Source of the DNA: Paenibacillus sp. FSL H8-0548
GTDB lineage: Bacteria > Bacillota > Bacilli > Paenibacillales > Paenibacillaceae
Reading direction: 5' to 3'
DNA length: 64,000 nucleotides
Assembly: GCF_038630985.1 (NCBI RefSeq)
Contig: NZ_CP152049.1
Span: 5,228,501 to 5,292,500 of the forward strand
Shown here one piece after another: positions 8,239 to 61,510 of the stretch (position 1 is its first letter; each line of letters begins with the position of its first letter). Under the pieces are notes generated by a model that did no database searches, was not told the DNA's origin, and worked only from the letters and a program-made list of their open reading frames with translations. The translations under genes were made by a program, and so were the position numbers.

Positions 8239-8275
8239 TATCTAAGAAGAAACTTATACTTTCCTATATTTCATG

Positions 8276-8302
8276 AAGCCTGCTGAGCGCAGGCTTTTTT
8301 TC
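8276..8302 (+). terminator. Terminator after the YjcZ-like gene
   Basis: AAGCCTGC-TGAGC-GCAGGCTT hairpin followed by a T tract. The 99-bp repeat element begins immediately after it. Confidence 0.88.
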
Positions 8303-8304
8303 TT

Positions 8305-8403
8305 GAAATATAGGAAAGTATATCATTTGGCCATACTTTCTCTATATTTCTCCTGAATGAAACGCGCCACCGCCATAAGGACGGCGATAGCCATTTCACC
8401 TTG
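8305..8403 (+). repeat. 99-bp terminator-following element, copy 1
   Basis: Two predicted hairpins: GAAATATAGGAAAGTAT pairing with ATACTTTCTCTATATTTC (one bulge), then TGAAACGCGCC...GCCATTTCACC with inner CGCC/GGCG. Copies at 26524-26622 and 61377-61475 (both reversed) have the same length and the same position after a terminator. Confidence 0.85.
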
Positions 8404-14711: not shown

Positions 14712-14986
14712 AAATCCCCCGCCGCAAGGGACGAGGGACCGTGGTGCCACCCTAATTCGCTTATGGTACGCTTCTCTTCAGAAATAAGCGCATAAAAAAC
14801 CCACAAGCCTTATTGCTCCATAACGGGGAACTGCCGTACAAACATCTTCGACAGCAGCATGAGCTGTCAGTTTCCGAAAGTATGCTCTGGGCCCCATTCC
14901 GCATCGATGCTTGCACCGGTTCGCACCATCCACCGGCTCTCTGTATGCAAAAACAATCGAGCTTACTTATTCCCATCATCGCATTT
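14712..14986 (-). ncRNA. T-box leader (tRNA-Trp sensing) upstream of trpS
   Basis: On the minus strand the T-box core AGGGTGGCACCACGG is at 14739-14753. It is followed by a terminator hairpin (TCCCTCGTC...GGCGGGGGA, 14715-14738) and six T. Upstream lie typical Stem I parts: an AAGTA motif, the GGATGGTGCGAACCGG distal region, and a specifier loop GGAATGGGGCC with codon TGG (Trp), matching the gene it controls. Confidence 0.95.
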
Positions 14987-14992
14987 AAAATG

Positions 14993-19383: not shown

Positions 19384-19430
19384 CAAGGTGAACCAACTGT
19401 CGCCGTCCTTTAAAGGCAAAACTCGTTTCG
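19384..19430 (+). repeat. Half copy of the 99-bp element
   Basis: CAAGGTGAACC, CTGTCGCCGTCCTTT and CTCGTTTC match the second hairpin of the 99-bp element with changes; the first hairpin is absent. It abuts the 71-bp inverted-repeat element. The remaining 19141-19380 and 19510-19700 is A/T-rich DNA in which I see no gene. Confidence 0.55.
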
Positions 19431-19437
19431 CAGTGAT

Positions 19438-19508
19438 ATATAAGTTGAACTTAAAAAATGATCTTCTCGCGCAGCGACCAAAACGTAAATGTGTAGTTCA
19501 ACTTATAT
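19438..19508. mobile_element. 71-bp internal-deletion derivative of the 194-bp inverted-repeat element
   Basis: Ends are ATATAAGTTGAACT and its exact complement AGTTCAACTTATAT. The left 23 bases and the right part (ATGATCTTCTCGCGCAGCG onward) match the 194-bp copies at 34456 and 59087; about 123 internal bases are missing. Confidence 0.8.
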
Positions 19509-19768
19509 ATTAATAATTCCTACTTTTGACTCATTATAACTAATCAAAAATATACGAAAGATCGATGTAATATTTTAAACGAAACTTTATCTCTTTAACG
19601 GTAATGGTATCATTTTCTAATTATGGCTACACCGAAAACGTCTTTAGTATTTTCCGAAACGCCGCTTGCGCCCATTATTTTTATTAATATTTACAAATCG
19701 ACAATTATAGACCAATTTCGCATCAGATGCTATAATGTGGATATTCTATTAAAAGGAGCGCTTACATA

Positions 19769-26523: not shown

Positions 26524-26622
26524 CAAGGTGAAACGGCTGTCGCCGTCCTTTGGCGGCGCTGCGCGTTTCATTCCGGAGAAATATAGAGATAGTATGGCGA
26601 AAGGATATACTTTCCTATATTT
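26524..26622 (-). repeat. 99-bp terminator-following element, copy 2
   Basis: Same two-hairpin layout as copy 1, read on the minus strand: GAAATATAGG-equivalent start directly after the T tract of the padR operon terminator, ending in CCGTTTCACCTTG. The inner stem uses CCG/CGG where copy 3 has CAT/ATG. Confidence 0.85.
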
Positions 26623-26623
26623 T

Positions 26624-26664
26624 AAAAAAGAGCAGCCTATGATCATTCCCATAGGCTGCTCTTC
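26624..26664 (-). terminator. Terminator of the padR-DUF1700-DUF4097 operon
   Basis: GAGCAGCCTATG and CATAGGCTGCTC with an eight-base loop, then TTTTTT on the minus strand. Confidence 0.9.
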
Positions 26665-34438: not shown

Positions 34439-34455
34439 ATTTGAAAAATAGATAT

Positions 34456-34649
34456 ATATAAGCTGAACTTAAAAAATGAAGTTTAAGCGAAGCGAGAAGA
34501 TCGTTCTGGAGAAACAAAGTGTTCGCCTTTGCAGCCATATTCTCACCTTTAAATGTCTTAGGAAATCAAAGAATCTGGCTGCAACCGCGATCGTAAGAAT
34601 GATCTTCTCGCGCAGCGACCAAAACGCAAATGTTTATTTCAACTTATAT
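34456..34649. mobile_element. 194-bp terminal-inverted-repeat element, copy A
   Basis: Begins ATATAAGCTGAACTT and ends TTCAACTTATAT. Inside, AGCGAGAAGATCGTTCT pairs with AGAATGATCTTCTCGC, and TTTGCAGCC with GGCTGCAA, giving one long interrupted hairpin. No transposase. Copy B at 59087 has the same length. Its right end supplies the stop codon of the GH2 gene. Confidence 0.85.
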
Positions 34650-61376: not shown

Positions 61377-61475
61377 CAAGGTGAAACGGCTGTCGCCATT
61401 CTTATGGCGGTGGCGCGTTTCATTCCGGAGAAATATAGAGAAAGTATGGCGAAATGATTTGCTTTCCTATATTTC
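61377..61475 (-). repeat. 99-bp terminator-following element, copy 3
   Basis: Same layout as copies 1 and 2; starts directly after the T tract of the binding-protein terminator. Inner stem is a perfect CGCCAT/ATGGCG. It sits inside the importer operon. Confidence 0.85.
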
Positions 61476-61510
61476 AAAAAAAAATGCGACCCCCAAAGAG
61501 GTCGCATTTC
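61476..61510 (-). terminator. Terminator after the LipO-type gene
   Basis: AAATGCGACC and GGTCGCATTT with an eight-base loop; nine T on the minus strand. Lies between binding protein and permease genes. Confidence 0.88.

Follow-up and report, generated by a model that had tools for sequence, protein, structure and literature searches.

The repeat of about 98 nt in the genome of Paenibacillus sp. FSL H8-0548 is best read, with a probability of roughly 0.7, as a non-autonomous IS91-type rolling-circle transposon, targeted to intrinsic terminators as mimics of its own terminal hairpin. The window, i.e. the whole stretch of 64,000 nt that was analysed, contains three copies of this element together with degenerate or truncated pieces (Table 1). 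An original prediction, made from the sequence of the window, had located the three copies, each placed directly after an intrinsic terminator and running in the direction of the terminated gene, and had proposed either targeted insertion into terminators or an RNA function at transcript 3' ends or against readthrough. Reading in place and alignment confirmed all three; each copy starts after a T tract in the same direction as its terminator, and the three terminator stems are different and unrelated. The length of exactly 99 nt originally assigned to all copies holds for copy 2, where it stems from a +2/-1 change in hairpin 2, yet the conserved part of copies 1 and 3 is 98 nt, the extra first base of the earlier count being a variable flank base. 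The G-U pair proposed for the second-hairpin core of copy 1 exists on the opposite strand (as G-T), since the core actually reads CGCCAT...ACGGCG, with an A-C mismatch on the given strand. The truncated 5' end beyond the terminator of copy 1 faces away from that terminator on the opposite strand, and a covariance-model match extends over it (8242-8352, minus strand, E 0.008). The neighbours of copy 3, judged by eye, are a solute-binding lipoprotein gene and a permease gene. At gathering score, Rfam matches the window once, at a T-box leader (14724-14988, minus strand).

Table 1. Copies of the 98-nt element, their terminators and associated repeats in the window
Feature	Position	Strand	Remarks
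Copy 1, 98-nt element	8305..8403	+	conserved part 8306-8403
Intrinsic terminator directly 5' of copy 1	8277..8301	+	AGCCTGC/GCAGGCT + T tract; folded
Gene ending at the terminator of copy 1			small; presumably YjcZ-like
Truncated 5' end of 98-nt element (AAATATAGGAAAGTATAAGTTTC type)	8249..8275	-	other side of the terminator of copy 1
Copy 2, 98-nt element family	26524..26622	-	99 nt
Intrinsic terminator 5' of copy 2	26624..26661	-	GAGCAGCCTAT/ATAGGCTGCTC + T6
Copy 3 of the element	61377..61475	-	conserved part 61377-61474, 98 nt
Intrinsic terminator 5' of copy 3	61476..61509	-	AAATGCGACC/GGTCGCATTT + T tract
Fourth copy, degenerate right half (hairpin 2 + CACCTTG)	19384..19432	-	preceded by a short type X TIR repeat
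Repeat X copies (TIR repeat)	19437-19509 and 34453-34649	-	ends TATATAAGTTGAAC / GTTCAACTTATATA

The conserved unit runs from AAATATAGG (it may also be written from AAATATAGGAAAG) to CACCTTG, and 89 of 104 copies end in CTTG; in 17 of the 104, the next copy directly abuts this 3' end. A DNA search of the bacterium's own genome (7.35 Mb, one contig) gave 53 matches at E <= 1, of which 45 span 95 or more of the 103 bases. With a covariance model built on 32 aligned sequences, the number rose to at least 152 (150 of them listed), which is a lower bound because the search scored 150 of 3814 first-look candidates. The element is widespread in the genus, with a match at 1e-3 in 40 of the 51 genomes surveyed. 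A variant with a different second hairpin (GAGAAACTTCTTGTCCTTAGACAAGGACGACG...GTTTCTTCTTA) occurs at L072, L060, L102 and other loci of the same genome, with 11 pattern matches in the sample, some of them degenerate.

The covariation that the original prediction expected of a larger alignment is present. In 37 sequences from this genome and its relatives, with 27 hairpin pairs counted, 89.8% of the hairpin cells are paired, and both sides have changed in 40 cells; shuffles give 10.6 +/- 2.7 such cells and slid structures no more than 16. Double changes affect 14 pairs (no more than 11 in the slid versions), and they are found in 11 of the 16 pairs of hairpin 1; for paired cells, the structure is favoured over its slid versions by having been drawn from one of the 37 sequences. 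The paired form looks constrained, in a manner that fits the ends of single-stranded DNA equally with RNA. When folded as DNA, the consensus forms a somewhat better structure on the opposite strand (-24.1 kcal/mol) than on the given strand (-21.3 kcal/mol).

The placement of the copies is beyond chance. Flanks were taken from 80 stretches of the genome (1.59 Mb), and 128 of the 150 listed copies could be used, the other 22 having been dropped for a missing flank or a missing readable 5' end. Among the usable copies, 36 stand in tandem behind another element and 92 do not, nine of the latter being located within repeat X. A hairpin with Ts behind it, at -7 kcal/mol or lower, precedes 64 of the 83 non-tandem copies outside X, and the controls reach 50 among 400 random positions and 80 among 300 matched for T runs, in agreement with the predicted enrichment at terminators. 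At a stricter cut-off of -11 kcal/mol, the corresponding values are 54 of 83, 18 of 400 and 39 of 300. No good hairpin was detected for 19 of the 83 copies. A cruder first detector (40 of 97 copies versus 23 of 1500 random positions) missed long stems and was replaced by this hairpin-energy detector. The same test gave a weaker result in a second species, G048 (8 of 14 non-tandem copies positive); the tandem pattern used there also caught three copies, L306, L313 and L319, which stand behind T tracts when inspected by eye.

The sites are also biased with respect to replication, with 114 of 136 independent sites co-directed. Unidirectional terminators (74-81% at four cut-offs) and long open frames (74%) show a like bias, and most of the effect, perhaps not all of it, therefore follows gene direction, such that a replication-strand effect was rejected as its main source. 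Fisher p values for site orientation range from 0.04 to 0.72 versus unidirectional terminators and from 0.0005 to 0.06 versus all terminators, and the value is 0.014 versus open frames.

Comparison of orthologous loci indicates that the element is mobile. The gene behind copy 1, which by eye we take to be toprim-like, is present in 50 of the 51 genomes, and 30 of its loci were read, those of 20 more genomes with a match being left out of the read set. Excluding the window's own locus and L189, which ends early, 28 loci are informative, and a pattern check found the element absent at 27 of them. The remaining one, in G026, carries a copy on the opposite strand, with the terminator lying between its position and that of copy 1; it is an independent insertion event. 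Repeat X provides a direct view of the insertion site: empty X reads TTTTTTTAA|GTTCAAG, filled X has 98 nt between the same bases, and no target-site duplication is seen between the two. Nine filled X copies elsewhere in the genome carry the 98-mer at one fixed internal site, which is probably the outcome of a single event spread by X. Exact boundaries at other loci are unreadable from the diverged orthologs, and the result on duplication rests on X. The TIR and target-site duplication expected of a DDE-type MITE were not seen in the 98-mer.

A candidate for the driver emerged from clustering of the sequence behind terminators, which yielded a 1613-bp element whose three sampled copies are 99.75-99.88% identical. 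It starts with TTTAGGAAATTATG right behind terminators, ends with GGTGATTTTGTTC and encodes a 423-aa protein with matches to PF04986 (Y2_Tnp, 5.7e-35) and PF14319 (Zn_Tnp_IS91, 2.5e-22). In the protein, the motif NPHIHALV starts at residue 172 and YIGRY spans residues 255-259, a four-residue tyrosine spacing as reported for IS91 (PMC5714925). Seven nearly identical copies of this 1.6-kb transposon are found in the genome, and at least a trace of it in 13 of the 51 genomes of the genus. Its left end was readable in 21 cases (the seven own copies, four more in the genus and ten in other genera), seven loci having been dropped for an unreadable left end (L210, L213, L214, L262, L263, L264 and L277). 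On recheck, both a hairpin with Ts, at -8 kcal/mol or lower, and an immediately adjacent TTG stand 5' of 20 of the 21; the exception, L284, has an altered left end. In some cases, the hairpin belongs to the end of another element, and the elements therefore form chains. The left flank of the 98-mers is mixed and looser than the xTTG of the IS copies, the preceding base being G in 44 of 104. The target-flanked end of the IS is on the 5' side of the transposase gene; in the IS91 family, the origin end is located on the 3' side of that gene.

The same placement rule is followed by IS91-type transposons of two clades. In the second, about 32% identical and read in G106, G052, G392 and G085, six non-tandem starts lie behind terminators and one tandem start follows the terminator-like end (GGACGCCGTCAGGCGTTTTTCTTA) of a first copy, all seven with hairpins of -8.8 kcal/mol or better. 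This count excludes six loci whose left end was not read (L266, L267 and L272-L275), as well as L291 in G105, whose first bases are missing and which no terminator precedes. At L290 (G106), two complete IS91-type elements stand head-to-tail, the second directly behind the terminator-like end of the first. A third IS91-type group (L237, L245, L240, L278 and L279) occurs in another context, with an apparent tyrosine-recombinase gene preceding most of its members.

Flank sequences further disclosed an element of 311 nt, which starts with TATAGGAAACTATGCATTCTC and ends in a hairpin followed by TTTTGTTC. Of its 27 starts in 1.65 Mb, 19 were assigned by eye to positions behind T tracts and eight to positions behind the end of another element; both ends were found for 20, and 19 of these measure 310-312 nt. 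It has in common with the 1613-bp element a TAGGAAA start and a terminator-like hairpin with a GTTC end, the 3' ends of both being a hairpin plus TTTTGTTC, and it is plausibly a derivative of that transposon. The terminal GTTC is found in the IS copies whose right end was located and in the majority of the 311-mers. Direct reading revealed no inverted repeats between the two ends of the 98-mer, the 311-mer or the IS.

The 5' end of the 311-mer, TATAGGAAACTATGCATTCTC, resembles that of the 98-mer, TATAGGAAAGTATATCATTTC, and one hybrid start is found at 7215313. From this 5' motif and the hybrid start, together with the common placement and the chains of mixed composition, we infer that the enzyme of the 1.6-kb element moves the 98-mer. 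The motif common to the 98-mer and the IS is short, and the IS has no visible counterpart of hairpin 1; the 3' ends are non-homologous (CACCTTG in the 98-mer versus TTTTGTTC in the present IS), and inspection of two sets of IS91-type loci (8 and 11) revealed no autonomous element that carries the 3' end of the 98-mer itself. PF04986 has a match in 8 of the 51 genus genomes. Among the ten copy-rich relatives, i.e. those with more than 90 first-look candidates (G001, G002, G008, G018, G026, G034, G045, G046, G047 and G048), eight have no PF04986 match and six have no transposase trace at all, even by translated search; the driver there must therefore be extinct or different, and it may have been lost, as happens with the passengers of dead transposons. 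The 98-mer would be moved in trans by this IS91-type enzyme or by an extinct relative.

The mechanism that we propose would begin with an HUH (Y2) transposase cutting one strand at the 5' end of the element (TATAGGAAA), and transposition would stop at the 3' end, where a hairpin precedes CTTG or, in the full-length IS, GTTC. The resulting single strand would insert behind a hairpin and a stretch rich in T whose last bases are xTTG, xTTA or GTTC. Since an intrinsic terminator, a hairpin with a T tract, resembles the transposon's own end, it would act as its mimic and become the target, and the strand which bears hairpin and T tract would set the orientation. Since an inserted element itself terminates in such a signal, the next copy could land directly behind it, and 98-mers, 311-mers and complete IS copies would line up head-to-tail in chains. 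Most simply, an enzyme recognising its own end would also accept terminators, and a single step would then account for placement, orientation and chaining.

Other HUH enzymes might be considered for the same role. REP/RAYT and PATE elements are small non-coding hairpin elements spread by an HUH enzyme, and the 98-mer could be such a single-strand element, moved by a Y1 transposase (IS200/IS605 or RAYT) which prefers sites behind hairpins. The two hairpins, the lack of TIR, the near-constant length and the tandem copies would fit, and Y1_Tnp occurs in 8 of the 51 genus genomes, including the copy-rich G048 and G002. This reading is nevertheless unlikely: the Y1 enzyme on which REP/RAYT and PATE depend was not found in the bacterium's own genome (no PF01797 match in one contig, 99.6% complete), Y1_Tnp is absent from the copy-rich G034, G026, G008 and G047, and the 5' motif and the placement of the 98-mer are shared with the IS91-type element instead.

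The strong hairpin covariation and the position and orientation behind genes would also suit a conserved, immobile RNA element that acts in cis at the 3' ends of mRNAs, under selection for stability or against readthrough. We hold this to be improbable, as the element is absent at nearly all the informative toprim loci, forms tandem arrays, and occurs within repeat X and behind the ends of other mobile elements, while a paired structure is equally expected of a single-strand transposon end. An RNA function is required by none of the findings. Of the two readings originally envisaged, targeted insertion at terminators is strongly supported by the empty orthologous loci, the independent opposite-strand insertion in G026, the tandem chains and the IS91-type transposon with the same placement rule.

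Least probable of the three is spread by a reverse transcriptase. Group IIC introns insert directly behind intrinsic terminators, according to the passages cited (PMC8919778, PMC7923331), and RVT_1 has 10 matches in the genome. Yet Rfam scans of the window, seven own-genome loci, L004, L207 and L288 gave no match for the element and none to a group II intron, and RVT_1, present in 28 of the 51 genomes, is absent from the copy-rich G034, G026 and G008. The size of 98 nt and the 5' motif common to the IS91-type element likewise speak against it. As drivers, Y1 transposases, reverse transcriptases and Rep_1 replication proteins were all rejected, their distribution not tracking the repeat. The reverse-transcriptase matches lie at 10 places on G000:C1, several with identical scores, and are possibly group II introns which also use terminators.

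The preferred reading, an IS91-type passenger, relates the repeat to a known family (IS91, IS801, IS1294 and ISCR). IS91 is reported to lack both inverted repeats and target duplication and to employ an HUH enzyme with two tyrosines (PMC5714925); IS1294 prefers GTTC or CTTG and equally has neither TIR nor target duplication (PMC6052338); and the IS801 transposase acts in trans, with miniature derivatives arising (PMC3189936). The partner transposase described here bears the IS91 Pfam domains and motifs, the 98-mer itself being non-coding, and lack of TIR, lack of a visible target duplication and a GTTC/CTTG 3' end are likewise shared. In contrast, published members choose a tetranucleotide, according to the passages cited (PMC3189936, PMC6052338, PMC5714925), whereas the target here combines a terminator hairpin, a T tract and xTTG, and the 98-nt and 311-nt derivatives are nearly fixed in length and present in many copies. 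Group IIC introns share insertion directly behind terminators, but they consist of a ribozyme with a reverse transcriptase, and the 98-mer has no Rfam match. Helitrons, exemplified by Helraiser, similarly employ an HUH enzyme, a 3' hairpin which stops transposition and high-copy non-autonomous derivatives, yet they are eukaryotic and insert between A and T, and the passages cited do not mention targeting of transcription terminators (PMC4778049).

IS91 itself is known; the terminator-targeting rule was not found in the literature searched. The titles, abstract openings and passages covered, with few subscription journals and without ISfinder, did not link IS91-type elements or the 98-nt repeat to terminators, and the covered text of an IS survey, searched with the words terminator and IS91, did not connect the two (PMC9208149). 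If the preferred reading is true, a second and unrelated kind of mobile element, here a DNA transposon, joins the group IIC introns in using terminators as safe landing sites, and a likely driver can be named for a repeat family abundant across the genus. Structural mimicry between terminator hairpin and transposon end suggests a simple mechanism for placement, orientation and tandem arrays at once, and these bacteria would offer a source of IS91-type enzymes which insert DNA behind terminators. We lean, by a small margin of confidence, towards a broader view in which an IS91-type lineage of the Paenibacillaceae has turned its terminal hairpin into a targeting rule: any intrinsic terminator would be read as a transposon end, and full elements, together with passengers of 98-311 nt which retain only the end signals, would settle harmlessly between genes and stack there. 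The rule holds in two clades about one-third identical, and may therefore have been overlooked as a general feature of one part of the IS91 family.

Beyond the genus survey, a search of a phage collection for the element gave one 20-base match (E 0.9), and a pattern scan of viral contigs gave nothing. A plasmid collection yielded partial matches at 83-86% on two replicons of Paenibacillus cellulosilyticus, as well as two weak matches in Rhizobium, and a scan of genome contigs found the element at one locus at least among the matches listed.
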